Assembly: GCF_000732195.1 (NCBI RefSeq)
Contig: NZ_JNNU01000008.1
Span: forward strand, 62,001 to 126,000
Direction of reading: 5' to 3'
DNA length: 64,000 nt
Source: Neorhizobium vignae
GTDB lineage: Bacteria > Pseudomonadota > Alphaproteobacteria > Rhizobiales > Rhizobiaceae
In this document: piece by piece, positions 2,421 through 16,258 of the stretch
Numbering within the stretch: position 1 is the first letter of the stretch
How the letters are laid out: every line of letters begins with the position of its first letter
The notes under the pieces: generated by a model
What the model saw: only the letters and a program-made list of their open reading frames with translations
Databases searched by the model: none
Told to the model about the DNA's origin: nothing
Position numbers and translations under genes: made by a program

Positions 2421-2858
2421 TTAGCTCTGCTGCGCGAAAAGGTTGCGCAGTCGTTCCTCAGGTTTCGCAACCTGCACCATCTCCAACCCTGAAGGGTCCA
2501 CTTTCTTCAAAAGAGAAACGTCCAGACGTTTGCCTCCGATCTGGAACACGCGTCCGTTGAACTCAATGCCAAGAACATCGAGCTTCTCACCCGCATTCAA
2601 CTTCTCGGTCGTGATTTGTTCCTGCAGTGTGAACTTTGCGACAAGGTAATCGCTGATGGGCATGCTCAGTTCGCGTTTCTTCAAAGCCTCAAGCTCGGTT
2701 TGAAGGCCTTCCAACTTCTCCGATTTCTGTTGAGGCTTAAGTGACGTGTCGGCCTTCCCGCCGTCCTCGTTTCTGAAACCAGCTTCTGGCGCAGTACGGT
2801 CCCTTACGCCATAGCGGTGAGCTGTCGCGGTACTAGACATCGACTGTATTGTGGTCAC
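2421..2858 (-). CDS. Hypothetical protein, 145 aa
   Basis: A small acidic/basic-mixed protein with no family that I recognise. The chosen start is GTG 2858 because AGGAG sits seven bases upstream; the downstream ATG at 2840 has no such signal, and the longer open frame to 3017 runs into an integrase remnant. Residues about 45-75 look like a short coiled coil (QQKSEKLEGLQTELEALKKR). The C-terminal half has alternating hydrophobic residues with a GIEFNGRVFQIGGKRLDVS segment suggesting a beta-rich small domain. It lies between the intact integrase 3' end and a decayed second copy of that end, so it may be cargo of an inserted segment. Confidence 0.55.
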   Translation of the reverse strand: MTTIQSMSSTATAHRYGVRDRTAPEAGFRNEDGGKADTSLKPQQKSEKLEGLQTELEALKKRELSMPISDYLVAKFTLQEQITTEKLNAGEKLDVLGIEFNGRVFQIGGKRLDVSLLKKVDPSGLEMVQVAKPEERLRNLFAQQS

Positions 2859-3215: not shown

Positions 3216-4526
3216 ATGACCGAAGACCATACCGACACCAATTATCTCCTCCCCCTCGCCGTCCTCTCGATTGCCCAGCTAATCGGCTGGGGCGCGGTTG
3301 GGTTCCCGGCTGTCACCGCGCCGCAGTTGGCGGGGGATCTAGGGATCGGGATGCCTGAAGTCTTCGCCGGGACCACGGTTTTCTATGTGATGATGGGGGC
3401 GTGTTCGCCGTTGCTGTCGCGGGTGTTTGCCAGGCTTGGGGCGCGGCTGGTGATGATTGCAGGGACGGCCGGTTCGGCGGCCGGGCTTCTTCTCCTGTCG
3501 CTGGCGCATTCGCCGGTCAGCTATTTCCTGGGATGGCTGATCGTTGGCGCGGCGGGCAGCGCCAGCCTGACCATGCCGGCGCATATCCTGCTCAACGAGA
3601 TAGCCGGACGCAAGGCAGCGAGGGCGATCGGTACGCTGATGCTGGTGACCGGCCTGTCGAGCACGATCTTCTGGCCACTCACCTCGTTCCTGCAGACCGA
3701 GATCGGCTGGCGGGGCGCCTGCGAGGTCTATGCGCTTGTCATGGCTCTCGTCTGCCTGCCGCTCTATGTCTTCGGCCTGCCGCGCAGACGCATCGAGGCG
3801 GCCCCTTCAGGCGTGGCGGCGGCGCCCGTTGCGGCGCGCAGCTATGACCGGACTTTCGTGCTGATCGTGGCGGCCATCGTCTTCAATGCCTTCATCACCT
3901 ATGGCTTCAGTTCGGTGCTGATCGAGCTCTTGAAAGGCGAAGGTCTGAGTGCCACGCAGGCGCTGACCTTCGGCTCGGCGCTCGGCATCATCCAGATCGC
4001 GGCGCGCGGCGTGAATTTCGTCGCCGATAACAAATGGGATGGTGTGGCGATCGGCGTCGGCTCGTCGGCGATGCTGTGCCTGTCGCTGTTGATCCTGCTT
4101 GCGGTGCAGGGTTCGCCGGTCGCGGTCGGCGTCTTCCTGGTGCTCTATGGCACCAGCAGCGGCGCGCTGGCCGTGGCGCGCTCGACGATCCCGTTGGTGT
4201 TTTACGACAAGGGCGAATTTGCGAGGGCGCTATCGCGGATCGCCCTGCCCCTCAACTGGATTTCGGCCGCCTCGCCGCCAGTCTTAATCTGGCTGATGAG
4301 CAATTACGGCAATGGCGCGGTGCTGTCGCTCTGCCTGTTCTGCTCGCTTTCGGCGATCGTCATGCTCTGCCTGCTGCGCGGGCGGCGGCCAGGCAAGGAT
4401 CGCGGCAGAAAGCGGCACGGGCAAGCCGAGCTAGGGGCGCCGGCGTTAACAAGCACGGCTGAGAAAGTCCTCCGTCAATGCGATTTCCAACTGGACCGAA
4501 AACCGGTCACCGAGCAACTCAAGTGA
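3216..4526 (+). CDS. Major facilitator superfamily transporter
   Basis: Inner-membrane secondary transporter of 436 residues with about 12 hydrophobic segments, split by a polar loop near residues 190-210 (LPRRRIEAAPSG). The pattern of a conserved acidic/basic loop between the second and third helices (SRVFARLGARLVMIAG) fits the MFS signature. Substrate cannot be assigned from sequence. The first Met at 3216 is used; a good ribosome-binding site is not obvious. The last 40 or so residues (RGRRPGKDRGRK onward) are hydrophilic and their coding DNA overlaps by 81 bases the 3' end of the convergent hydrolase gene, so the frame may run past its original stop. No linked pathway gene reveals its cargo. 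Confidence 0.8.
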   Translation: MTEDHTDTNYLLPLAVLSIAQLIGWGAVGFPAVTAPQLAGDLGIGMPEVFAGTTVFYVMMGACSPLLSRVFARLGARLVMIAGTAGSAAGLLLLSLAHSPVSYFLGWLIVGAAGSASLTMPAHILLNEIAGRKAARAIGTLMLVTGLSSTIFWPLTSFLQTEIGWRGACEVYALVMALVCLPLYVFGLPRRRIEAAPSGVAAAPVAARSYDRTFVLIVAAIVFNAFITYGFSSVLIELLKGEGLSATQALTFGSALGIIQIAARGVNFVADNKWDGVAIGVGSSAMLCLSLLILLAVQGSPVAVGVFLVLYGTSSGALAVARSTIPLVFYDKGEFARALSRIALPLNWISAASPPVLIWLMSNYGNGAVLSLCLFCSLSAIVMLCLLRGRRPGKDRGRKRHGQAELGAPALTSTAEKVLRQCDFQLDRKPVTEQLK

Positions 4527-5027
4527 AGCATCGTGTGTTTGATCCGCACCGCTACAGACGGCATCTTTGAGGAGGATGACGCGATAACCAAGGTCGATGG
4601 CTCCGATGGCTGCTGCCAGAACACACACATCAGTTTCGCCGCCAGAGATCGCGACGGTCTCGATCCCCTCCCCCGAAAGTACGCGATGAAGTTCGCCAGT
4701 GGTCCACGGCGAATAGGTCATCTTGTCGAAGATCCTTGCGGGGGGAACCAAGGCCTTTAGGGACGGAACGAGATCGACCATCTCCGGTCCGAGCCGTTCG
4801 AGCGTCATCGAGTCCCACTTTTCATAGTAGCTCCGCCACATGCCGTGCATGTCATTTGCCCGCTTGGCCGGCACAAAGCGTGTAAAAACGGTCCTCTGCG
4901 GATGGTGCTTTGCGATTTCCTCGATTTGGGGTGAGACTTCTTGCATCCACGGAACGCGCCATGGCGTGTCCTCTGCGAACATCCGCTGCATATCGATGCA
5001 CAGGTGGATCCAGTTATTATCCTTCAT
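4446..5027 (-). CDS. Isochorismatase-family cysteine hydrolase
   Basis: A 193-residue single-domain enzyme of the isochorismatase/nicotinamidase superfamily. The catalytic triad is visible: Asp12 (CIDMQ), Lys102 (FDKMTYSPW) and Cys135 within GGETDVCVLAA, whose preceding segment forms the family's cis-peptide. Such enzymes cleave small amides or vinyl ethers through a thioester on the cysteine. Nicotinamidase is one possibility, made attractive by the NAD synthetase gene just upstream on the same strand, but the metal-binding His pattern of PncA is not clearly present, so I leave the substrate open. The gene is 128 bases downstream of nadE and overlaps the tail of the convergent MFS gene. Confidence 0.85.
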   Translation of the reverse strand: MKDNNWIHLCIDMQRMFAEDTPWRVPWMQEVSPQIEEIAKHHPQRTVFTRFVPAKRANDMHGMWRSYYEKWDSMTLERLGPEMVDLVPSLKALVPPARIFDKMTYSPWTTGELHRVLSGEGIETVAISGGETDVCVLAAAIGAIDLGYRVILLKDAVCSGADQTHDASLELLGDRFSVQLEIALTEDFLSRAC

Positions 5028-5155
5028 CGCGTCCTCCGTCCGCCACGAACCTGCATACTAGGCATGAGTTCCCTTCGGCTGAACACGGACCCATTTTGCG
5101 CGAGTCTTTGAGACACCCGCTTGCAGTGGCAATCCGCAAAACACGTTAAGTCGAC

Positions 5156-5977
5156 TCAGCCAGCCGCCGCTACCGGCAGGGCACGCTTGTGCCCACTCGC
5201 ACGATAGGTCTTAAGGATCCTTAGTCGCGAGTCCTCGGCGATCGCCTTGCCTTCCAGGAAATTGTCGATCTCCTCGTAGGTGACACCGTAAACTTCTTCA
5301 TCCGGACGAAGGGGCGCGTCGGATTCGAGGTCCGCAGTCGGGACCTTGAACACAAGTTCCGAGGGCGCTCCCAAATGCTCGGCTATGGCTCTCACTCGAC
5401 GTTTCGTCAAACCCGCGAGGGGCAATATGTCGGCTGCCCCATCCCCAAATTTGGTGAAAAACCCCATCAGGGCTTCAGCAGCCTGATCTGTTCCAATGAC
5501 GAGACCACCCGTTGCGCCAGCCAGCGCATATTGCGCGATCATTCGCTGACGCGCCTTGATGTTACCGAGATGAAAATGTTTCCGGGCTGGCTCGACCAGA
5601 TCCCCGCCTTCGACCATAACTGCATCGAGCATGGCGTCGGCGGCGGGCTTGATGTCGACTGTGACGACACGATCCGGTCCGATTACGGCGAGCGACTTCT
5701 GCGCGTCCGATTCGTCAGCCTGGAAGCCATAGGGCAATCTGACAGCGATGAATTTGGCATCGTATCCATCAGCGCGGAGTTTTGAGACCGCCTTTTGCGC
5801 TAGTAGGCCAGCAGCGAGAGAATCGACCCCACCGCTTATGCCCAGGACGAAACTCCGGCTCGATGAGTGGCGCAGATAGTCGCTCAGGAACTGGGCGCGC
5901 TGTTCCACCTCGCGGGCCGCGTCGAAGTCGACGGTCACTCCGAGATCTGCTGATATCGATTGCTGTTCTTCGTCCAT
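5156..5977 (-). CDS. nadE: NAD(+) synthase, ammonia-dependent type
   Basis: Cytosolic enzyme that amidates nicotinate adenine dinucleotide to NAD using ATP. The 273-residue protein is the short NadE form without a glutaminase domain. It shows the PP-loop SGGVDS at residues 48-53, GFFTKFGDGAADILPLAGLTK (the NadE signature for substrate binding) and the acidic EVYGVTYEEID segment near the C-terminus. The start is ATG 5977, because AGGGG lies seven bases upstream; the ATG at 5983 is too close to that site, and the long frame to 6133 overlaps the next gene. It is 43 bases downstream of a small hypothetical gene on the same strand, so the two may be co-transcribed. Because the chromosome normally carries an essential nadE, this is probably an extra copy. 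Confidence 0.9.
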   Translation of the reverse strand: MDEEQQSISADLGVTVDFDAAREVEQRAQFLSDYLRHSSSRSFVLGISGGVDSLAAGLLAQKAVSKLRADGYDAKFIAVRLPYGFQADESDAQKSLAVIGPDRVVTVDIKPAADAMLDAVMVEGGDLVEPARKHFHLGNIKARQRMIAQYALAGATGGLVIGTDQAAEALMGFFTKFGDGAADILPLAGLTKRRVRAIAEHLGAPSELVFKVPTADLESDAPLRPDEEVYGVTYEEIDNFLEGKAIAEDSRLRILKTYRASGHKRALPVAAAG

Positions 5978-6020
5978 TGGCATTCCCCTGAAAGCGTTGG
6001 CTATCGATATTTGAGCACTT

Positions 6021-6266
6021 CTATCCCAGCAGAGGTTGGTCTTGTTTCCAATCGCGGTAGGGAGCCAGCTTTTGCCCGGGAAACCGGCGCTCGATTTCGT
6101 CTTCAACCAGAGCAATTCGGGAAAGCGTTTCATCCCGGTCGTCGACTTCGTCCTCGCTATGTTTTTCCAGCGAGCTCATGGCGGCAAACACTTCATGACT
6201 CGTCATCGCCTCAAGTCGAGATGCGAAATCCGAAACATCTTCCTGCAAAATGTCTTTAGCTGTCAT
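6021..6266 (-). CDS. Small hypothetical protein, 81 aa
   Basis: A small, strongly acidic helical protein beginning MTAKDILQEDVSDFASRLEA. I do not recognise a named family. ATG 6266 is preceded by GGAGGAGG at a normal distance, the clearest ribosome-binding site in this neighbourhood, so the gene is likely real. It precedes nadE in the same direction and diverges from the DUF4142 gene, with about 113 bases between the two starts that must hold both promoters. Confidence 0.65.
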   Translation of the reverse strand: MTAKDILQEDVSDFASRLEAMTSHEVFAAMSSLEKHSEDEVDDRDETLSRIALVEDEIERRFPGQKLAPYRDWKQDQPLLG

Positions 6267-6379
6267 TGCAAGCCTCCTCCGTTCAGGGAGGAAACCATAA
6301 GAGATTGAAAGTGTTCCCTGTCTTGGAACCATGCAGCGTCGCGCTGGTTATCGCGCCACGGTCAACAGGAGTCTTTCTC

Positions 6380-6913
6380 ATGAAAAAAGCCATTATCCTT
6401 GCATCCATCCTTCTCGCCACCGCCGGGTCCGCAGCACTGGCGCAGTCCACCGCGGAAAAAACCGGGGTCAACTCAGTCATGGGCGTTGCCCCCAAGACCG
6501 AAGATTTTGTCCTGGAGGCTGCAAGCAGCGACATGTTCGAGATCGAGTCCAGCAAGCTTGCCCTTGAGCGTTCAGACGAGAAGACCAAGGCGTTTGCACA
6601 GCAGATGCTAACCGACCACCAGAAGACATCTGATGAGTTGAAGGCCATGATGACGTCCGGCAAGGTCAAGGCAACAATCCCGACCGCCATGTCGTCCGCT
6701 CATCAGGGCATGCTCGACGACCTGAAGAAGCTTCAGGGTGACGATTTCACCAAGCAATATCATTCTGACCAGGAGGACGTGCATGAGGATGCTGTCGATC
6801 TCTTCAAGCGCTATGGCGACGAAGGCGAGAATGCCGAGTTGAAGGCCTGGGCGGCAAAAACCCGGCCAGCGCTCGAACACCATCTGCAGATGGCAACGGA
6901 CATGAACAAGTAA
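6380..6913 (+). CDS. DUF4142 domain protein, exported
   Basis: A periplasmic protein of 177 aa. Residues 1-22 form a classical signal peptide (MKKAIILASILLATAGSAALA) with cleavage expected after Ala-Leu-Ala. The rest matches DUF4142, a ferritin-like four-helix family: DFVLEAASSDMFEIESSKLALERS, then AFAQQMLTDHQKTSDELKAMM, and a late acidic helix before HHLQMATD. The family is common in rhizobia and is often linked to envelope stress, although the biochemical role is not known. ATG 6380 is used because CAGGAG lies about eight bases before it and the signal peptide begins exactly there. A hairpin plus a run of seven T follows the gene. Confidence 0.85.
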   Translation: MKKAIILASILLATAGSAALAQSTAEKTGVNSVMGVAPKTEDFVLEAASSDMFEIESSKLALERSDEKTKAFAQQMLTDHQKTSDELKAMMTSGKVKATIPTAMSSAHQGMLDDLKKLQGDDFTKQYHSDQEDVHEDAVDLFKRYGDEGENAELKAWAAKTRPALEHHLQMATDMNK

Positions 6914-6922
6914 TGACCGCTT

Positions 6923-6958
6923 GCCCCCGCCGAGTTATCCTCGCCGGGGCATTTTTTT
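6923..6958 (+). terminator. Rho-independent terminator after the DUF4142 gene
   Basis: GC-rich inverted repeat (GCCCCCGCCGAG ... CTCGCCGGGGC, with a small internal mismatch) followed by seven T at 6952-6958. It lies ten bases after the stop codon. Confidence 0.75.
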
Positions 6959-6968
6959 GAGGACGGCA

Positions 6969-7522
6969 ATGCTCATCGGCTACCACGCCTCTCACGAACA
7001 ATTCTCGGCCAGTCAACTCCTGGACTACGTCCAGGCCGCCGAACGCGCCGGCTTCCAGGCGGTCATGACTTCCGATCATTTGGCACCGTGGAGTGAGAGA
7101 CAAGGAAACTCAGGCAACAACTGGGCTTGGCTGGGGGCGGCGATGGCGAAGACGACCTTGCCGTTCGGCTCTCTCGCGATCCCAGGCGGTTGGCGTTACC
7201 ATCCCGTCGTTTTGGCGCACTTGATAGCCACCTTGAGCGAGATGTTCCCGGAGCGGCTGGATTGCTCTCGGAAGCGGCGAAGCGCTCAATGAAAATGCGG
7301 TTGGACATGGCTGGCCGGCCAAAACAGAGCGCAACGACAGATTAGAAGCCGGTTCACAAATCATTCGAGCGCTGCTTGCTGGTGAGATGGTGACCTCACC
7401 ATCCACGGCTCAAGACTGACCAGGCGAAGCTCTGGTCGCTTCCTGAGGGGCGCTGCACTCACTGAGCCGACCGCGATCGGAGAGTCCGAAGCTCTTCCAT
7501 TCGGGACCAACTGGGTACGTTG
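6969..7522 (+). pseudogene. Remnant of an LLM-class flavin-dependent oxidoreductase
   Basis: The first 90 codons read cleanly (MLIGYHASHEQFSASQLLDY, VMTSDHLAPWSERQ, GSLAIPGGWRYHPVVLAHLIATLSEMFPE) and match the N-terminus of luciferase-like monooxygenases. At about 7258 the frame shifts; the family continues in a second frame with WIALGSGEALNENAVGHGWP and IIRALLAGEMVT. A third frame then gives LKTDQAKLWSLPE (about 7410-7450), and a fourth gives AALTEPTAIGESEALPFG up to 7523. At least three indels, therefore, and only about half of the usual 320 residues remains. The remnant ends exactly where the truncated lasso B2 gene begins, which marks the deletion joint. Confidence 0.85.
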
Positions 7523-7807
7523 AAAGCTGCCTCTTCGAGAAAAGTAGAGCCGGCTGCCGATGTCGAGGACATGGCTTGGCTGTATCAACATATCCGAAAT
7601 CTCCGTCCCCATAGGCCAGCGTGCCTTGAGGATTCCCTTTGCTGCACCCTTTTCATGGTGGGTTATGTGCATCGAGCATCGTTTTGCATCGGGGTGAAAC
7701 AGCCGCCCTTCATGGCTCACGCTTGGGTTCAGGTCGGGGACTTGATCATTAATGATACCAAAAGTGTAGTCGAGGCTTACAGCGAAATTCTGAGACTAGA
7801 CCTATGA
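7520..7807 (+). CDS. Lasso peptide biosynthesis B2 protein (transglutaminase-like leader peptidase), N-terminally truncated
   Basis: In lasso peptide pathways the B protein binds the precursor leader and cuts it off before the C enzyme closes the ring. Here only the B2 protease part is left: Cys35 in PACLEDSL, His67 in MAHAWVQ and Asp79 in IINDT form the expected Cys-His-Asp triad. The frame opens at TTG 7520 without a convincing ribosome-binding site. Proteobacterial B proteins are usually near 200 residues with an N-terminal leader-binding (RRE) domain; this one has 95 and lacks it, because the DNA upstream is an LLM oxidoreductase remnant. The stop overlaps the start of the C gene (ATGA). 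The catalytic domain looks complete, but the protein may be poorly expressed or inactive. Confidence 0.8.
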   Translation: MKAASSRKVEPAADVEDMAWLYQHIRNLRPHRPACLEDSLCCTLFMVGYVHRASFCIGVKQPPFMAHAWVQVGDLIINDTKSVVEAYSEILRLDL

Positions 7808-9456
7808 AAATCGATGCCACAGAACTGTACGAACGTGCCACGTCTGTCCGTGGGCTGCAGATTTCGCCGACGATGAATATAACGGTTGTAAATGATACTG
7901 AGGATGCCGTGACAGGAGAGCCTTCCGATGTCAATGCGGACATGATGAAGGGCATGAATCTTCTCGAGTCAGCCTATTTTCTACATGACAATTTCGCTGG
8001 CGACACAGCATTCGTGATTGAGACCGCCAACTCCTTCGCTATCGTCAGGCCGCCATTTTCAGAACTTCCGATCTATTACTTTGAGCAGCAGAACAGGATC
8101 AAGGTATGGGCGGGTCTGGATATTCCAACGTGGCTCCAACAGCGGCCACCTGCTTTCGATTTAGATTATCTTGCGGTCGCATTGCACAACTGGTCCTGGG
8201 TAACGCCTCAAACGGGACTGAAGGGTGTCAAAGAGCTCCTCAGTGGCGCCATATTGGTGTTTGATGGCACAGATCTTTGGCAGCGAGACCTTCTGGCCCA
8301 CGCAGTAGCAGCACTGCCGCCTGCCCCTGCAACTGATTACGCACATCAGGTCAATTTGATTCGCCAATTGATCTTGAACAGCGTTTCACACAAGCTCGGA
8401 CCGCATATAGAGCATGCCGCCGTCCTTTGTTCTGGGGGCGTAGATTCCTCTGTTGGGGCTGTCGCAGCGGGAGCGTTGTACCCGAATAGAACCTTTCCGC
8501 TCATCCACTGCGACTCAGAGGAACACTTGTACGGTGACGAGAGGTTTTACTTCGAGGCGGTGGCGAAGAAAACTGGCTGGCCGACGGCCACAGTAGACAT
8601 GAATGAGGGAGCTTCGCGCGAGAGTCTGTCGCCAGATTTACTAGTACCGACCGCTCGGCCTATGAAATCCGCCGCGGCTCTCTCCACAATGGCCGCGTTA
8701 AAGAAGCTGGCCATGGCCAGAGGAGCGCGAGTCATGCTGTCCGGCGATGGAGGGGATCAGCTATTCATCCTAAACGACCCTACCCTTTACTGCCAGGAGT
8801 TGGTCGGGGAGGCGCCGACGTTGAAGCCCAAGCTGATCGCTACAAGTGAACTAGCCAACGTGACCCGGAAAGCATCTTGGGAGGTGGCGGGTGAGGCTTT
8901 ACGTGCGCAGAAGGCGGGACAACTCCGAGAAAGATACTTTGGCAAGCTCCGGTTCCCGAAGAACCCGTTAGCGGTTGAGCCGGCCCCAGAAAACACAGAG
9001 GTTGTGCCGAACGGCTCAACGCTTTCGGGTTTAGGCGTAAGCCGGGCATTCCAGTACTTCGGGATGCGGAATGCGGAGTTGAATCAGGTGCCAATCAGGG
9101 GCTTAGCTGTCGAAGAACGGAAGACGTTTTTGTTTTGGCCCCTAGTTCGCGCGGCCATGATCGCGGCACGCGGACATCATTTGAAAGACGGACGAAACAG
9201 GGCGCTCGAGCGTGACGCGTTCCGGCACGAGTTGCCGCCAGAGGTCTACCACTGCTTTAGTAAAGGAGGCAGTCGCGATTTTGCCCAACGATATGATTTC
9301 CCTCGCCTTGTTCATTCCCTCCAACACAGTCCGCTTATCAGGTATGGCCTGATCTCAGAAAAGATAGATAACATCGAAAATGCACCCGACGATGACACCG
9401 CGTTCGCTCTGGTCGTCGCGAGAGGGTTCGCCGATTGGATGGAGCTTTATGCTTAA
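7804..9456 (+). CDS. Lasso peptide cyclase (asparagine synthetase-like C protein)
   Basis: A 550-residue relative of asparagine synthetase B that, in lasso pathways, adenylates the Asp or Glu side chain of the core peptide and forms the macrolactam ring. Residues about 1-180 correspond to the degenerate glutaminase-like domain; there is no N-terminal Cys2, as expected for a cyclase. The synthetase domain shows the PP-loop SGGVDSS at 210-216 and SGDGGD at 313-318. Length is typical of McjC-type proteins. It overlaps the B gene by four bases and the transporter gene by eight, so translation is probably coupled. The frame is intact although the pathway upstream is broken. A plain asparagine synthetase is unlikely given the B and D neighbours. 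Confidence 0.85.
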   Translation: MKIDATELYERATSVRGLQISPTMNITVVNDTEDAVTGEPSDVNADMMKGMNLLESAYFLHDNFAGDTAFVIETANSFAIVRPPFSELPIYYFEQQNRIKVWAGLDIPTWLQQRPPAFDLDYLAVALHNWSWVTPQTGLKGVKELLSGAILVFDGTDLWQRDLLAHAVAALPPAPATDYAHQVNLIRQLILNSVSHKLGPHIEHAAVLCSGGVDSSVGAVAAGALYPNRTFPLIHCDSEEHLYGDERFYFEAVAKKTGWPTATVDMNEGASRESLSPDLLVPTARPMKSAAALSTMAALKKLAMARGARVMLSGDGGDQLFILNDPTLYCQELVGEAPTLKPKLIATSELANVTRKASWEVAGEALRAQKAGQLRERYFGKLRFPKNPLAVEPAPENTEVVPNGSTLSGLGVSRAFQYFGMRNAELNQVPIRGLAVEERKTFLFWPLVRAAMIAARGHHLKDGRNRALERDAFRHELPPEVYHCFSKGGSRDFAQRYDFPRLVHSLQHSPLIRYGLISEKIDNIENAPDDDTAFALVVARGFADWMELYA

Positions 9457-11161
9457 CGTTACTACTAGAATCGGGAACATTTTCCCTCCCCTTCAGCGCG
9501 AGGTGTTGAGTGTGGCCCTGCGTCGCCGCAGGAAGACATTGTTCGCTCTCTTGGGAGCAACACTGTGCGCATCGGCGTGCACGATAGGGGCGCCGCTCGT
9601 CTTTGCGTATGCGGCAAAGGTGATAGGCAACGGCTCCTATTCACTTGGACTACTGTTGGGACTATTCGCTGCTTATGCTGCGCTCCTAGCGGGCGTCCGA
9701 CTACTGAGCGACGTTCGGATGGTCCTCATGCATTCGATCGAGCAGGATGTCCGTCTCGTTGCGAACAAGATGTCGCTAGCCGCTCTGTTGCGCTCGTCAG
9801 GCTCCATATTTGTTGCCAATAATCCGGCGCGTGTGGGAGAGTTGATCAACAATCTCCACCAGTCTAATGCGATCTATGTGCAATCGTTTTTGATGGTGGT
9901 TCTGGCCGGCGCTATAGACATGGCGTTCGCGTTCGCAGCGATTGCCGGTACTGTAAGTTGGGTGGTTGCAGTTTTCGTCATTATCTACGGCATAGCAACT
10001 GTCTGGTTGACTCTCCGTGCGAACAACGTGACGACCCAGATCCAGCGGCAAGCACGACGCAAATCCGCCGAGGGTTCGAACCTCCTTGGAAACGTCGTAA
10101 ACAACATCGTTTCAATAAAGATCTTCCGCGGCGAAGGTTGGGTTCAAGGGCTTTATGAAACTTTAGCTGAGGGCGCGCGTACATTTTGGCTGCAATATTT
10201 CTTTACCCGCTTACGATACGGGTCGTTTCAGGCTGCTCTTATATTTATCCAGTACTTCAGCGTGCTTGGAATGCTGGCCATCACGCTCAGATCGCCTGAC
10301 CTACTCTCGCAGGTCGTCCTCGTAGGCATGATACTCGTGCAACTCAATCGACCGTTTGAGATGATAGCGAGTGCAATCGAAGAGTATGCGATGGCCCAGG
10401 TACTGGCCGAAATGCTTCAAAACGAGCTTGACCAACATCAGCTTCCGCTAGCGCGCCTGCCATCGAGTCCGATGCCTCACATGGATACCTTGGACATTGA
10501 AGTTCAAGAACTGTCGTTCGGCTATCTTCCTGAACAGCCGCCACTTTTTGACGATGTCACGACGACATTCGCTCCGGGTGGGCTGAATTTTATTGTCGGA
10601 CCATCGGGTGTCGGCAAATCTAGCCTCCTGCAAATCCTCCTTGGTATCAACGAGAATTACAAAGGCGCGGTTATAGTTGGCGGTGTCGACTTGCGCAGCA
10701 TCAACAAGGACACCTATCTCTCTTCTATCGGTTATGTCGCGCAAGAGCCGATGCTCATGAATTTGAGCATTAGGGATAACGTCCTGTTTGGGCGCCAGTA
10801 CAGCGACGAAGAAATCATTTCAGTTCTACACACCGTCAGTTTGGCGGAGAAGCTTCATGGGCTAACACAGGGGCTTGATTTTCGGATCGGAGAACGGGGC
10901 CAACTCCTAAGTGGCGGGGAACGGCAGCGACTGGCGATCGCCCGTGCGTTAATAGGGAGGCCAAAGGTGCTTATTCTAGATGAAGCAAGCTCCGCACTGG
11001 ATGAAACAACGGAGCGAAGCATTTACGCTAGTTTACGTAGAACTGCGCAGGAAACGACTATCATTGCCGTCACGCACCGGCTCGGAGTAATTGGAGCGAC
11101 GGATAAAGTACTTGATCTAGCCGCAGGACAGGAGCGGAGGCTGAGGCAAGCGGCGAAGTAG
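9449..11161 (+). CDS. ABC exporter, McjD-like (lasso peptide export/immunity)
   Basis: A full half-transporter of 570 residues: a membrane domain with about six helices (residues 30-310) fused to an ATPase. Walker A is GPSGVGKSS at 384-392, the signature LSGGERQ at 488-494, Walker B VLILDEASS at 507-515 and the switch His543 in VTHRLG. McjD-type exporters pump the mature lasso peptide out of the producer and so protect it. ATG 9449 is preferred because GGAG precedes it by five bases; it overlaps the cyclase stop. As the only transporter in the locus it would be the immunity gene if a peptide were still made. Codon use and base composition of 7.5-11.2 kb appear less GC-rich than the catabolic operons further right, which suggests separate acquisition. 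Confidence 0.85.
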   Translation: MLNVTTRIGNIFPPLQREVLSVALRRRRKTLFALLGATLCASACTIGAPLVFAYAAKVIGNGSYSLGLLLGLFAAYAALLAGVRLLSDVRMVLMHSIEQDVRLVANKMSLAALLRSSGSIFVANNPARVGELINNLHQSNAIYVQSFLMVVLAGAIDMAFAFAAIAGTVSWVVAVFVIIYGIATVWLTLRANNVTTQIQRQARRKSAEGSNLLGNVVNNIVSIKIFRGEGWVQGLYETLAEGARTFWLQYFFTRLRYGSFQAALIFIQYFSVLGMLAITLRSPDLLSQVVLVGMILVQLNRPFEMIASAIEEYAMAQVLAEMLQNELDQHQLPLARLPSSPMPHMDTLDIEVQELSFGYLPEQPPLFDDVTTTFAPGGLNFIVGPSGVGKSSLLQILLGINENYKGAVIVGGVDLRSINKDTYLSSIGYVAQEPMLMNLSIRDNVLFGRQYSDEEIISVLHTVSLAEKLHGLTQGLDFRIGERGQLLSGGERQRLAIARALIGRPKVLILDEASSALDETTERSIYASLRRTAQETTIIAVTHRLGVIGATDKVLDLAAGQERRLRQAAK

Positions 11162-11465
11162 CACTTGCCAACCGGCCTCCACGCTGGCATCGGTCGCCTT
11201 GAACGGATCTGAACCATTGGCAGTCACAGTCAATCAATTAAGCCATTGAATTGATGTCGCTGTGGCGTGACGTCGATTTGTGGAACTGAATTAGCCCCCC
11301 GAAAGGCCCGGACATGCTCCCCCACTTAGCTAAGTGGGTAGGAGTAATGTTGGTAATATGACTAGCAGCAAGATGGAAGTCCTCGGGAGTATCGTTCCAC
11401 GCGTCCGTGTGAATTCGGTTGCGGGAGGGGTAGTGAAACTGCGAGTTTCGCCATCACGCGAAAAA
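11162..11465. other. Intergenic stretch with a perfect 18-bp palindrome; no gene seen
   Basis: About 300 bases between the lasso exporter and the EAL remnant. It holds the perfect palindrome CCCACTTAGCTAAGTGGG at 11321-11338. No small open frame with the properties of a lasso precursor (leader with penultimate Thr, core starting with Gly and an acidic residue at position 7-9) was found here by eye. The stretch may contain an insertion-sequence edge, but I cannot name one. Confidence 0.4.
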
Positions 11466-11491
11466 GGGCCGGAGACAAAGTCTCACGGCCC
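11466..11491 (-). terminator. Strong hairpin terminator, best in the minus direction
   Basis: On the minus strand GGGCCG-T-GAGAC-TTT-GTCTC-CGGCCC is followed directly by TTTTTC, a textbook rho-independent terminator for the EAL-domain gene remnant. On the plus strand the same hairpin is followed by AAGTTTTTC and could also stop transcripts that leave the lasso locus. Confidence 0.8.
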
Positions 11492-11500
11492 AAGTTTTTC

Positions 11501-12172
11501 TCATCGACGCGTAGGGAGGAGATCGCGTCTAGAACCCCAAGGTAGCGGATCATGGTTAACGAAGCGTAAACGCTGGCTGCGGTGTGTGTGTGTCGCGCGC
11601 GACTCGTGCTCTAAGGCGGAGATTTTCCGTTCCATGATTTCAGGGCGCCCGAACAGAAATCCCTGCAACTGATCTGGAGCTTTAACAGCCAGGCGGGCAC
11701 GCTGTGCTTCCGTTTCAATCCACTCGACAACGACCGTCAATCCGAGGCTCTTGCCTAGCGCCAAGGCGCAGTCGATGATGACCTCGGCGACCGCGTCCTC
11801 ATCGAGCGCGGCGACATAGCTGCGATCGATCTTCAGTTTGTGAAACGGATAGCGCCTGAGGTTGGTCATGGAAGAATACCCGCTGCCATAATCGTCCATC
11901 ACCAATTTGATGCCGTGCGCTGTCAGTGCTTCCAAGCAACGGCCGACATCTGCGCGATCTTCGAGAAGCGATGTCTCGGTGACCTCCAACTCCAACCTGT
12001 CAGCCGAAAGCCCACTCCTCTCGAGCGCGGTCGTCACGTGTGTAGTCAAATGCGAGGAAAGTAGCTGTCTTGCCGAGACGTTGACCGCGACGAACAGGCT
12101 ATTATCCCACGGCCTGCTGCGCATCAAACGTCTGACGACCGGGCAGCAGAACCGAAAAATCGTCTCCCTCAT
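11501..12172 (-). pseudogene. EAL domain (c-di-GMP phosphodiesterase) fragment
   Basis: The protein segment FVAVNVSARQL, LELEVTETSLLED, VMDDYGSGYSSMTNLRRYPFHKLKIDRSYV and DQLQGFLFGRP is the C-terminal two thirds of an EAL domain. The EAL motif itself and the first helix are absent, because the DNA joins an unrelated gene at about 12172; the open frame that continues to 12322 is antisense/other-frame sequence. The segment usually reading EGVET is EWIET here, and residues near the lost GC before DQLQG also differ. With the substrate-binding EAL residues missing, hydrolysis of c-di-GMP is not possible. Confidence 0.85.
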
Positions 12173-12212
12173 ACCAGAAGGTGACGCCTCGGATGCTCTT
12201 TTGCGATATGAG

Positions 12213-12644
12213 TCAATATTGGCCGCAACCCGGACCGCCAGCCAAATGGCCGTACCAGCCGTCGCCGCGCTCAATTGCCTCGATGAACTCCTCGAAAGAG
12301 CGGCCGAGAACACGCACTTCATTCAGCCAGTTTCCGGCAAAGACGAAGGGAATGGAAATATAGTCGCCCTTGACGAAGCCATAGGCGGTCGGGCCGCCAT
12401 TCGAACCGATCAGCAGCTGGTCGTCGCGGAATTCGAAGATCTCGTAGCCGTCAGCCCCGGAGAGTTCCGCCGCACTCCACAGGATCAGATAACCTAGGCC
12501 GACCTCTCCGTTGAAGCCGTTGGAGACGGCAAGGAAGGCCTTGATCTCCGCCGGCAGGATAATCTTCAGTTTCGCCTCGCAGGCCGCGATTTCAGCCGGA
12601 CTTGCGCCCGGCAACTGGCAGCCACCTTCAAATTTCTCCAGCAT
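12213..12644 (-). CDS. SMI1/KNR4 family protein (candidate immunity protein)
   Basis: A 143-residue SUKH-type protein: an N-terminal helix with GASPAEIAACEAKLKIILPAEIKAFLAVSNGFNG, the family hallmark, followed by the beta-rich ILWSAAELSGADGYEIFEFRDDQLLIGSNGG and a FAGNWLNEVRVLGRSFEEFIEAIERG tail. Many bacterial SMI1/KNR4 proteins neutralise polymorphic toxins delivered by contact. The start ATG 12644 shares a base with the stop of the upstream gene (TGATG), so the two genes form a translationally coupled pair. A longer in-frame reading to 13616 exists but its middle part is a shadow of that upstream gene and its end is a LysE fragment. No toxin gene is visible nearby. Confidence 0.8.
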   Translation of the reverse strand: MLEKFEGGCQLPGASPAEIAACEAKLKIILPAEIKAFLAVSNGFNGEVGLGYLILWSAAELSGADGYEIFEFRDDQLLIGSNGGPTAYGFVKGDYISIPFVFAGNWLNEVRVLGRSFEEFIEAIERGDGWYGHLAGGPGCGQY

Positions 12645-13252
12645 CAGCAGGCCCATTCGAGCTTCATCTCCTTGAGGTCGATCTGGGCGACACCGTCGCC
12701 GAAATTGAAGCCGCCGAAGATCTCCGAGATCTCGATGTAGAAGGGCGAGAAATCGGGATAGCCCTGCATCGGAAACATCGTGCCGCCGAGATGGGCGTGC
12801 CAGTCTTGAAAGCGCTCCAGCCCCAATGCCTGGCCTTCTTCCGAATAGGCGGCGATATAGCCGCTGAACTCGTTCTCGTGCCTGAATTCGCGCGCTGGCT
12901 TTCCGACATTCGGGTCGCCCTCGCGCAAGGTGATCTCGATCGGCCAACCGTAGTCGAGCGCTTCTGTTCCCGGCAGGTTCTTCCAGCCGCTGGGAGGCCG
13001 CGCTGCCGCCAGAAGCTCGTTGACGGCAAGTCCGCCGGGCGAAAAGACGCTTTTCGCCTGCTGCTCGGCCACCGTTTTCGGCAGGTTGAATTCGCCGAAA
13101 TAATCGAGCGGCGATTTCGAGAGCCAGCCGGGAACAGGAGCGCCCTCGATGGCCGGCGGTGCGCCGAAAGAGATAGGACGGGTCGGAGACAGGGCAATGA
13201 CGAAGCGGGAGGTCGGCGGCTGAGTGTTGCTGGGAAGGCGCCAGCCGTTCAC
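12644..13252 (-). CDS. Hypothetical protein coupled to the SMI1/KNR4 gene, possibly N-terminally truncated
   Basis: A frame of up to 202 residues that I cannot place in a named family. Readable blocks are PVPGWLSKSPLDYFGEF, LDYGWPIEITLREGDP and the C-terminal HLGGTMFPMQGYPDFSPFY followed by EISEIFGGFNFGDGVAQIDL, which suggests a soluble beta-rich protein of the type often found in toxin-immunity gene pairs. Its stop overlaps the SMI1/KNR4 start, so both are likely made from one transcript. Upstream the sequence changes abruptly into a LysE fragment near 13250, and no ribosome-binding site is evident before ATG 13252, so the natural N-terminus may have been lost. Confidence 0.55.
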   Translation of the reverse strand: MNGWRLPSNTQPPTSRFVIALSPTRPISFGAPPAIEGAPVPGWLSKSPLDYFGEFNLPKTVAEQQAKSVFSPGGLAVNELLAAARPPSGWKNLPGTEALDYGWPIEITLREGDPNVGKPAREFRHENEFSGYIAAYSEEGQALGLERFQDWHAHLGGTMFPMQGYPDFSPFYIEISEIFGGFNFGDGVAQIDLKEMKLEWAC

Positions 13253-13254
13253 CC

Positions 13255-13616
13255 GAGCGCGTGCGGAGATCGTCTTGCAGCGCCCGGGAGAGCCTGAGGT
13301 TCATAGTATTTGATCCGATCTCTCGAGCCGGATTGGAGCCGGAGGGGCGCCGCAAAAGCCGGATCGCCGAATAAAGGAGGATAAAAGCTAGGACCATGGA
13401 GCCCCAGGAAGCCGGGCCCTCCCCCGTGTAAACCGTCGTCGCTCCCATGGCAGCGAGACAACAAGCGATGGCGGCGCCCGAAGCAATTCCGGCGGCCACA
13501 CTGAGCAATCGGCGCCAGGATGGATTAACCGCCACCCGCAGGACAACAAGAAGGTTCGGACCTGGTGCAATGAGGACTAGCGAGTATGAGAGCGCAAGCG
13601 AGGTCAGAAGCGGCAT
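13255..13616 (-). pseudogene. LysE/RhtB-family exporter fragment (N-terminal part)
   Basis: From ATG 13616 the frame encodes MPLLTSLALSYSLVLIAPGP, the start of the first helix of LysE/RhtB amino acid exporters, then a second and third membrane segment (LLSVAAGIASGAAIACCLAAMG, SMVLAFILLYSAIRLLRR). The similarity stops around residue 120, where the DNA becomes the hypothetical gene described at 12644. Full-length members have about 200-210 residues and six helices, so the distal half is missing. Confidence 0.75.
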
Positions 13617-13987
13617 GACATCAATCTCGGGGCCTCCGTTTGAAGCGCCGAAGATCGGTGATTTTTAACCGTTTCGCGTCACCCGGCTGGGCGATAACTT
13701 GTCGCTGCGGTCTCACAAGCCTGTAAGTAGGACCCTCCTCTTGGGCGCCTTTTCAAACGCATTATTTCGGGCCGCGGACTGTCCGCCTCTTACACGTTGG
13801 CGACGTGCTCCGCTCTCCAGGAGACAAGAAGAAGCTGTGAAGGAGCTTGACGACGCTCAGGGGGACGAAATGCCGAGCACCGCAGTCTGAAGCGATTACT
13901 TGGCTTCACTTGTAATGATGTTCCGCTTCGGCCAGCCGCCAGCGGCAGTTAATCTTGACCCAATTCGAAAACACGACAAGAATTCTT
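13617..13987. other. Intergenic stretch, nothing recognised
   Basis: About 370 bases between the LysE fragment and the palindrome in front of the LuxR-type gene. A 63-codon frame at 13699-13890 has no ribosome-binding site and an atypical composition; I do not regard it as a gene. Confidence 0.4.
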
Positions 13988-14011
13988 GACGTCACCCGAT
14001 TGGGTGACGTC
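13988..14011. promoter_or_regulatory. Palindromic candidate operator upstream of the LuxR-type regulator
   Basis: GACGTCACCC-GATT-GGGTGACGTC, two perfect 10-base arms around four bases, lies about 95 bases before the regulator start. A related, imperfect site (TCACCCGATCGGATGA) occurs at 15292-15307 downstream of the same gene. Position and symmetry suggest autoregulation. Confidence 0.6.
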
Positions 14012-14106
14012 GGCAGTTTGAGTTGGCCTTAGACAAGCAGCCCGTGATTAAGTGCATCAGTAGCAGCGGTTGGCTGGCTTGTTCCGCCATGATGAGAGGC
14101 GCTGAC

Positions 14107-15237
14107 ATGGAACATGCCCAGATCATCGATGCCATCTACCAGGCGTCCATCCGATATGAACTATGGCCACGGACCCTGTGCACGATCGTCGACTATGTCG
14201 GGGCCGTCGCAGGAAATATCGTTTATCAGGCGCCGCCGGGAGGACGCGGGAGCTTTCTCATTCCGGGCAGGATGCGGGAAGACCTGAATAGCCTCTATCT
14301 GCAGGAATATGCCCAGAACCCGTACGCGCGGGCCTACGAAAAAATAAAGCCTGGCAATGTCGTGCTTGGCAACACCATGATCGACCTGGCCGCAATCCAG
14401 AAGTCTTCGTTCTATACCGACATCTGCGAGCCCCAAAACATTCACAACCAACTCTTCATGCCGCACGCCAGCTTGCACGAGCGGGGCGGCATCGGAGGTA
14501 TCGCACTCTTTCTGTCCCGAGCGCAGGACGAGCATGCGGAGCTGGCACTCAACCGACTGACCGAACTGGCGCCGCATATCGAGCGCGCAATCGACCTATC
14601 TTTGCACATCACCCGCATTGACTATGGCCCCGACCTAGCGCAGCGGCTGATCAACGCGATGCCGGATGCCGCTGTCTTGATCGGAAGCCGGGGCGAGGTC
14701 ATCCTTCTCAATGCTGCGGCTGAAACCCTACTAAAACAGGCCGATGGCATCTCGATCAGCCGATCGGAGCGCTCGGTTCTCAGGGCTCAGGTTGCAGAAA
14801 CCGCTTCTCGAATGGCGACCAGCATCCGACAGGCACTTATGGTCGCGGATGGCGGGGCCACGCCGTTCAATGGAGCTTTCCCCATTATCCGGCCATCAGG
14901 CCTTCCTCCTTACCTCGCGACAATCACACCGCTGGCGCCAACATCATCCGCCATATGGGACGCGACCGATAGCCAGGCGCGGGTTCTGTTGCAGATTGTC
15001 GATCCGGAAACAAAGACCCGGCTGCAGGCTCGACGGTTGCAGACGATGTTCGACTTGACGGATGCGGAGACGCGGGTTGCCGCGTTGATCGGCAGCGGGA
15101 TGAACCTTCATGAGATCGCCCGAGCGCTCGGCGTGTCGCCAAATACCATCAAAACGCACGCTGCCCGTTGCTTCGGAAAGGTCGGAGTTCGTTCGCAACC
15201 TAGTCTAACGCGCCTCATCGCCTCTATCCCGGCTTAG
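14107..15237 (+). CDS. LuxR-type helix-turn-helix transcriptional regulator
   Basis: A DNA-binding regulator of about 376 residues. The C-terminal 60 residues form a LuxR/FixJ-type HTH: LTDAETRVAALIGSGMNLHEIARALGVSPNTIKTH, with the conserved Glu, Gly and recognition-helix residues. A central block (LAQRLINAMPDAAVLIGSRGEVILLNAAAETLL) resembles a PAS-like sensor fold. The N-terminal 200 residues do not look like an acyl-homoserine-lactone domain and there is no receiver domain, so the signal is unknown. I chose ATG 14107 because GAGAGG lies seven bases upstream; ATG codons at 14089/14092 and a longer frame from 14023 are alternatives. A perfect palindrome precedes the gene and a related site follows it. 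Confidence 0.8.
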   Translation: MEHAQIIDAIYQASIRYELWPRTLCTIVDYVGAVAGNIVYQAPPGGRGSFLIPGRMREDLNSLYLQEYAQNPYARAYEKIKPGNVVLGNTMIDLAAIQKSSFYTDICEPQNIHNQLFMPHASLHERGGIGGIALFLSRAQDEHAELALNRLTELAPHIERAIDLSLHITRIDYGPDLAQRLINAMPDAAVLIGSRGEVILLNAAAETLLKQADGISISRSERSVLRAQVAETASRMATSIRQALMVADGGATPFNGAFPIIRPSGLPPYLATITPLAPTSSAIWDATDSQARVLLQIVDPETKTRLQARRLQTMFDLTDAETRVAALIGSGMNLHEIARALGVSPNTIKTHAARCFGKVGVRSQPSLTRLIASIPA

Positions 15238-15291
15238 CTCCTGGCGTATGGTCCGATGTTCCTGCTACCGCCTTAAACATCAACCCAACCC

Positions 15292-15307
15292 TCACCCGAT
15301 CGGATGA
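15292..15307. promoter_or_regulatory. Second, imperfect copy of the LuxR-region palindrome
   Basis: TCACCCGATCGGATGA shares TCACCCGAT and the spacing of GG-TGA with the perfect site at 13988-14011. It lies between the regulator's stop and the terminator-like hairpin that precedes the 15419 gene. Confidence 0.45.
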
Positions 15308-15353
15308 TGACAGCTCCATCTCAGGACGGGAAAATAAGGTCCCAACCTCGTTC

Positions 15354-15390
15354 GGTTCGAGCGTTCATCGCGCTCGAACCACCTTTTTTT
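15354..15390 (+). terminator. Hairpin with seven-T tail between the LuxR gene and the 15419 gene
   Basis: GGTTCGAGCG and CGCTCGAACC form a perfect 10-bp stem with a seven-base loop, followed by ACC and seven T (15384-15390). It should stop transcription from the LuxR-type gene or from any short transcript that begins at about 15240-15300. As it lies only 28 bases before the next start, it could also act as an attenuator. Confidence 0.8.
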
Positions 15391-15418
15391 GAAGGTTGTT
15401 GAGACATCGAGCGGATAT

Positions 15419-15907
15419 ATGCTGGAGACGATGATGTCACCCGAAAGCCTGGCGCCGGAAATATTTACTCGGGCATGGGCCGTAGGTCTGCAGACTGTCC
15501 GCGAAAAGGCAATTTGCTCTTTTGACCATATGACGGTTATCCCCAATTTGTCGCCTTCTTTTTACGCGATTTCCTGTCAGGAACTCAGGAGTGACATGGA
15601 GCTAGTCCTCCAGATCGGCCTTTCGAGACTCCTTGCCGATGGCGAGGTCAAAACCGGCCCTGACGGCTATTCCATGGCATCTGCCAACGCCGGGAGCGTT
15701 GTCGACTTCTCTATTGCCTCATTGGAGCGGCGGTCGGAGATTGTGGCAACCTGCTTCGAAGCAGTGCCAATGGATGCGAACCCTGGCCGGATGATCGAGA
15801 CGCAGGGAGACTGCCCCAAAGATTATTCGCCTATGATGCCGAGCGCTATGGAGGCAGGATACGGATCGATCGTGAGACCCGAAGAAGGGGCAACTGGCGT
15901 GGAGTAG
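15419..15907 (+). CDS. Hypothetical protein, 162 aa
   Basis: No family recognised. The N-terminal half is helical and amphipathic (MLETMMSPESLAPEIFTRAW and following), loosely phasin-like in character, but this resemblance is too weak for a call. Two internal stretches with Met and Ser/Ala residues follow, then a disordered C-terminus. ATG 15419 is used because the alternative TTG at 15389 falls inside the terminator tail. The ribosome-binding site (GAGCGG) is weak. Possible control by the LuxR-type regulator is suggested only by the palindrome upstream. Confidence 0.5.
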   Translation: MLETMMSPESLAPEIFTRAWAVGLQTVREKAICSFDHMTVIPNLSPSFYAISCQELRSDMELVLQIGLSRLLADGEVKTGPDGYSMASANAGSVVDFSIASLERRSEIVATCFEAVPMDANPGRMIETQGDCPKDYSPMMPSAMEAGYGSIVRPEEGATGVE

Positions 15908-15972
15908 AGCTAAACTATCGCCTGCGCTAGTTCGCTCCTACAGGTCGCCCGAAATTGGGTTGGCCGTCGATT

Positions 15973-16171
15973 CAGGGATCAGAACAAGATTAGTGCGGAA
16001 TCGTACGTTTAAATGATAAACGATGATCGAGATCGACATTCCTCCCCAAAACTGGGCGCTCCTGATGCATTTTTCCCTGAAACCTACCGTTCGAAGCAGG
16101 CTGCAAACTACGGAAAACATGCACAATTTCGGCTAGCGTACGATTTCGCACTAATCTTGTTCTGACCCCTG
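15973..16171. mobile_element. MITE-like element with 35-bp terminal inverted repeats
   Basis: The left end (15973-16007) and right end (16137-16171) are near-perfect inverted copies sharing CAGAACAAGATTAGTGCG and AATCGTACG, with one substitution and one indel-like difference near the outer end. The 199-bp element carries no gene, which fits a non-autonomous insertion mobilised by a transposase encoded elsewhere. A clean target-site duplication is not evident from the flanks, so age or exact borders are uncertain. Confidence 0.8.
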
Positions 16172-16258
16172 CATTGAATTTTCCAATGCTCCGCCTCGCA
16201 AACTAGCCTACGGCAATTCACAGGTCGTAGGTGTCGTCGACGAAAGAAGCACAAGTCA

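Follow-up and report, generated by a model that had tools for sequence, protein, structure and literature searches.

A probable remnant of a horizontally acquired lasso-peptide cluster without its precursor and the leader-binding half of B

The window analysed here is a stretch of 64,000 nucleotides (G000:C8:62001-126000) from a genome that is assembled as a draft (6.34 Mb, 84 contigs) and rated 100% complete. Positions 7475-11161 of the window are the 3' part of a lasso-peptide cluster with the gene order B2-C-D (Table 1). A B2 protease with a Cys-His-Asp triad, a 550-residue cyclase and a 570-residue exporter had been predicted to be intact and overlapping, and profile matches, the alignment and the open frames agree on this. 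The B2 fragment matches PF13471 (E 2.2e-16, 60.2 bits, cut-off 26) and NF033537 lasso_biosyn_B2 (E 5.1e-17, 62.5 bits, cut-off 33); its frame is open from 7466, and the first ATG, GTG or TTG codon is a TTG at 7520. Residues C125, H157 and D169 (numbered as in the B protein of the complete Bradyrhizobium locus L112) are invariant in all seven aligned B sequences, the window copy among them, and are taken from their position for the B2 triad. The cyclase scores far under the cut-offs of the NCBIfam lasso cyclase models (45 of 300 and 22.1 of 525 bits), and we call it a lasso cyclase because of the gene order and because its relatives adjoin precursors. The stretches SGGxDSS and GDGGDQLF are common to the window cyclase and the one relative aligned, and three stretches in the exporter, which we take to be Walker A, LSGGE and Walker B as we take the cyclase stretches to be the motifs so named, are readable directly in the sequence. 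The transmembrane region of the exporter reaches 19.7 of 28 bits against PF00664, under the Pfam cut-off. B2 and C overlap by ATGA and C and D by 8 bases, and the frames overlap in the complete relatives too.

Table 1. Features in and around the window locus, and predicted precursors of the complete relatives. Positions are those of the window or of the locus named in the first column.
Record	Feature	Position	Strand	Remarks
Window	LLM-class oxidoreductase, 5' part (TIGR03885 type)	6969..7474	+	E 6.3e-51; 3' half missing
Window	B2 protease domain, fragment	7475..7807	+	without residues 1-73 of 185-aa relatives
Window	lasso-type (asparagine-synthetase-like) macrolactam cyclase C, 550 aa	7804..9456	+	intact; Asn_synthase PF00733, E 6.6e-15
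Window	ABC exporter D, 570 aa	9449..11161	+	intact; ABC_tran, E 2.7e-27
Window	insertion-element end, remnant	11283..11384	+	copies at 89-93% in five genus mates
Window	EAL-domain fragment	11501-12322	-	first quarter missing; PF00563 positions 60-236 of 236
Window	SMI1/KNR4 (SUKH) domain	12216-12656	-	E 1.3e-9
Window	202-aa ORF	12644-13252		no Pfam match
Window	inverted repeat, 41 nt	15967-16007 and 16137-16177		90% complementary, 129 nt apart
L112	predicted precursor, complete Bradyrhizobium cluster	6612-6755		
L114	predicted precursor, complete Bradyrhizobium cluster	2582-2725		
L115	predicted precursor, complete Bradyrhizobium cluster	6662-6790		
L116	predicted precursor, Bradyrhizobium	6616-6759		
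L117	predicted precursor, Bradyrhizobium	6616-6759		
L113	predicted precursor, Ramlibacter	3235-3369		

Most relatives of the window locus are complete lasso-peptide clusters. A tblastn search over 72,556 plasmid records returned three records, namely two Bradyrhizobium barranii plasmids and a distant Asticcacaulis plasmid; the latter match covers 46% of the cyclase at 26.5%, has an isopeptidase next to it and belongs to a distant lasso cluster, which was used as an outgroup only and not counted as a relative. A scan of species genomes with a two-row profile, which holds two peptide patterns only and may miss members, gave seven loci. One of them (L118) is one of the two B. barranii plasmids, hence there are eight distinct relatives in all. 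Six of these are complete, five from Bradyrhizobium (L112, L114, L115, L116 and L117) and one from a Ramlibacter MAG (L113), and in each of them a precursor (43-48 aa) and a full, fused B (185-187 aa) lie directly upstream of the cyclase C (551-555 aa), with an exporter also present. The identity of the window to the six complete clusters is 47.8-50.9% in B2, 40.9-42.4% in C and 44.5-52.6% in D. The two B. barranii plasmids carry members of the same subfamily: NZ_CP096256 has kept the precursor, but the frames of its B, C and D are broken, and a recombinase gene extends into the N-terminal end of C in NZ_CP096252, where B2 was not found. As these two relatives are broken as well, loss is not rare in this lasso family. 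The original prediction of a broken cluster is supported by this comparison, as precursor and full-length B are present in six of the eight relatives and absent from the window, and the remaining two relatives are broken themselves.

The Bradyrhizobium C and D genes are under purifying selection, with dN/dS of 0.23-0.34 in 20 of 20 pairs among the five copies. The A and B genes give noisier ratios (0.25-0.94, defined in 19 of 20 pairs). The five Bradyrhizobium loci also share a convergent ORF that overlaps the end of D (GntR-like in L112), to which the end of D in the window has no match. A homologue search by single protein over genome contigs found none, and a literature search on lasso peptides with Bradyrhizobium or rhizobia, in which journal coverage was incomplete, returned no title on this subfamily.

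The 5' end of the B2 fragment adjoins the remnant of an LLM-class oxidoreductase gene, and the joint, placed at 7474/7475 to within a few bases, is real. In the genus mate G010 the upstream block has the same order (window 4453-7446 at 81%) and the LLM oxidoreductase is an open frame of 324 aa. Homology to this gene is traceable to ~7474, and B2 homology begins at 7478 against L112 and at 7481 against L113 (tblastn). The joint of the B gene with an LLM remnant was thus predicted correctly; the proposed locus start at 7420 was not, since the LLM remnant extends ~54 bases past it. The remnant covers profile positions 1-94 of 315 in the NCBIfam model TIGR03885, and the L098 alignment and tblastn pieces also identify it. 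Set against the intact G010 copy, it bears three frame-breaking deletions (5, 2 and 17 bp). A second LLM homologue (L103) aligns with residues 5-324 of the G010 protein at 60.7%, so the frame-breaking changes belong to the window copy. Elsewhere in the same genome, the only match to the 3' half of the LLM gene is a second paralogue region (65%).

Loss of the leader-binding part of B had been proposed, and the window copy does begin at a position that corresponds to residue 74 of the complete 185-aa L112 B (tblastn), with residues 1-73 absent at the locus. Part of the helix before the protease domain (residues 60-77 in the L112 B model) is absent as well. A modest structure model suggests that residues 1-73 carry the RRE sheet, since the L112 B model has strands at 4-9, 12-17 and 22-26, and the predicted strands of the McjB RRE are at 5-9, 12-16 and 21-25 (PMC11420955). 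The mean pLDDT of this model is 70.2, lower in the N-terminal third and <50 at residues 27-55, and the other four L112 B models have pLDDT 47-55. No RRE or PqqD model matched the N-terminal part of B, and its assignment as an RRE thus rests on the structure model. Among solved structures, nothing matched the B profile at E≤1, and a fold search with the L112 B model gave no match at E≤0.001, its top-ranked hits (Hsp90, probability ~0.1) being discarded. The protease is activated when the RRE recognises the leader (PMC11420955). Of the three PF13471 matches at E≤1 in the whole genome, one exceeds the cut-off, and there is no second B2 above it. PqqD has two sub-cut-off matches in the genome (E 0.064 and 0.85), which say little on a separate RRE because the model also misses the RRE part of L112 and L113.

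The precursors of the relatives follow a common pattern. The motif D-x-G-x-A-T-E-L-T-x-G is common to the seven aligned precursors (those of the six complete loci plus NZ_CP096256), and with the core start set at its final Gly, all seven have a Glu at core position 9. The Thr at -2 is a known lasso signature present in 94% of clusters (PMC11420955). Two of the seven precursors were scanned with NCBIfam and gave weak matches to lasso leader models, below the cut-off. A study of 425 rumen genomes cautions against calling a lasso cluster incomplete too soon, with 23 incomplete and 11 complete clusters called automatically and 33 genomes with complete lasso clusters after manual curation (PMC7533575), and controls were therefore run for the precursor search. 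The precursor profile scored three positive loci, all three included in the profile, at E 2.7e-23 to 9e-32, and a second profile, from which L113 had been left out, recovered the precursor of L113 in the Ramlibacter genome at E 9.4e-4. In the window, the profile and a motif scan gave chance-level scores only, and over the whole genome the precursor profile gave nothing at E≤10. The second precursor profile gave two matches in the whole genome (E 2.24 and 2.98), which were rejected, as one has a stop inside the match and the other looks like a piece of an ABC ATPase. The precursor, predicted to be missing, was thus not detected above chance level in the window or by the precursor profiles in the whole genome. 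The window C and D are farther from Bradyrhizobium (41-42% and 45%) than those of Ramlibacter (45-46% and 48-49%), so a divergent window precursor may be somewhat harder to see than the L113 control and could be missed.

The lasso locus looks horizontally acquired, given its rarity in the genus, family and class and its low third-position GC (B2 0.56, C 0.60, D 0.58), which is below that of four neighbouring genes (0.63, 0.69, 0.73 and 0.81). The cyclase occurs in 1 of 57 genus genomes, 1 of 394 sampled family genomes and 1 of 385 sampled class genomes (E≤1e-15), each time the genome of the window itself, with up to three candidates scored per genome in the family and class samples. Matches in 47 other genus genomes are 25-33% identical over about half of the query or less and are presumably asparagine-synthetase relatives. 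On its 3' side, the locus is followed by a patchwork of stretches that match different contigs of different genus mates, which fits an acquired cluster cut in a region of frequent rearrangement. This side includes the end of an insertion element, IS3-like by our reading of ORFs in L078, L080 and L082, and the EAL-domain fragment. Window 16000-40000 has DNA in common with plasmids of Rhizobium, Sinorhizobium, Agrobacterium, Pararhizobium and others, from which we take the strain to belong to the rhizobium group. No tRNA that could serve as an integration site was found in the window, Rfam gave no match over 6000-16000, and promoter and terminator scans over 6900-11500 showed no excess over shuffles.

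The surroundings hold several other features. In a second genus mate (L100, G046:C25:5500-18000, region ~5593-10241), the same upstream block (window 4431-7064) precedes an LLM gene, the homology of which ends after residue 36. YcaO (PF02624) and TfuA (PF07812) genes, a different RiPP-type locus, are found ~2.6 kb beyond this broken LLM gene. The LLM-gene site may be variable, perhaps a hot spot. Downstream of the lasso locus, a SUKH gene lies beside the 202-aa ORF, and window 12408-13167 is 95% identical to G053; SUKH proteins are often immunity proteins of polymorphic toxins. The inverted repeat lies farther downstream.

The segment is likely a non-productive remnant of a horizontally acquired lasso cluster, without the precursor and the RRE half of B. 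A complete A-B-C-D cluster would have been acquired, and a rearrangement at 7474/7475 would have joined its downstream three quarters to the LLM-oxidoreductase gene of the host, and neither the precursor gene nor the RRE half of the fused B, which would bind the leader, is left. Because precursor and RRE are absent, the B2 fragment and the cyclase would be left without anything to process and no lasso peptide would be made. C and D would still be open since the break is recent, not since the pathway works. This kind of decay is ordinary for gene clusters.

The distribution of lesions bears on the age of the break. The LLM remnant has three lesions in 506 bp and the B2 fragment, C and D together have none in ~3.7 kb; C and D alone are lesion-free over ~3.4 kb, which speaks against the interpretation as a remnant. 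Had all parts decayed for the same time at the same rate, all three lesions would fall in the LLM part with a chance of ~0.002 (hand arithmetic). This leaves three options, namely an earlier death of the LLM gene, lesions made by the joining event, or something that maintains C and D. The LLM lesions cluster towards the joint and may be part of the joining event itself. Selection on the window branch was assessed by a relative-rate count only, with synonymous sites judged saturated against relatives of 41-53% identity. With the five Bradyrhizobium loci as reference, window-only and Ramlibacter-only changes number 11:10 in B2, 80:55 in C and 62:39 in D (chi-square 0.05, 4.6 and 5.2; rooting uncertain), a weak hint that the window branch may be changing faster than the Ramlibacter branch. 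The count for C is probably invalid because the C tree sets the window outside the other two (support 79).

It is unlikely that selection maintains the exporter, with the cyclase as a passenger, as protection against lasso peptides of neighbouring soil bacteria. Such a role has precedent, as McjD exports MccJ25 and is its immunity factor (PMC13352647, PMC11420955), and the microcin immunity genes mcbG and an mcbF orthologue are described without biosynthesis genes in two E. coli strains (PMC10926693). The window exporter is itself intact, with Walker A, LSGGE and Walker B present. However, the cyclase is equally intact, and we know of no immunity role for it, so exporter immunity fits poorly. 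Across the 394 family genomes, with up to three candidates per genome, the other six matches at E≤1e-60 are just 29-31% identical. The window branch is also faster than Ramlibacter in D and C, not slower, under an uncertain rooting.

That the joint is an assembly error and the strain has an intact cluster is very improbable. Although the genome is a draft in 84 contigs, the joint is internal to contig C8 (~69.5 kb from the contig start), the gene order is shared with G010 up to the joint, the LLM part bears lesions of its own, and the other contigs have no second B2 or precursor. Least credible of all is the proposal, also made in the original prediction and not supported by the genome search, that the cluster works in trans with a precursor and an RRE encoded elsewhere, for although RRE and protease are separate proteins in some lasso clusters (PMC11420955) and a separate RRE could escape a PqqD model that misses this part in complete relatives, B is fused in all six of those, the genome, rated 100% complete, has a single B2 over the cut-off and no precursor, and the control recovers the L113 precursor at E 9.4e-4 where the best match of the genome itself is at E 2.24.

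As a remnant, the locus would illustrate one route of lasso-cluster loss, in which the precursor and the recognition domain go at one joint and the enzymes and exporter are left open. The comparison also outlines a small subfamily of lasso clusters, seen in Bradyrhizobium and Ramlibacter, whose precursors can be predicted and tested: the leader ends in D-x-G-x-A-T-E-L-T-x, and the core begins with Gly and has Glu at position 9. Should the exporter still give protection, the locus would offer a natural case in which to test how immunity of this kind arises.

The microcin J25 cluster mcjABCD is among the closest known systems, with the likeness to McjB, McjC and McjD drawn by features rather than by direct alignment. 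It is like the window in the B-C-D order, the B2 triad, the asparagine-synthetase-like cyclase and the ABC exporter, and like the complete relatives in the fused B, a similar three-strand N-terminal layout and the Thr at -2 of the leader. The window copy differs from it in having neither A nor the RRE half of B. The relatives differ in the predicted ring acceptor, which is Glu at core position 9 against Glu8 in MccJ25.
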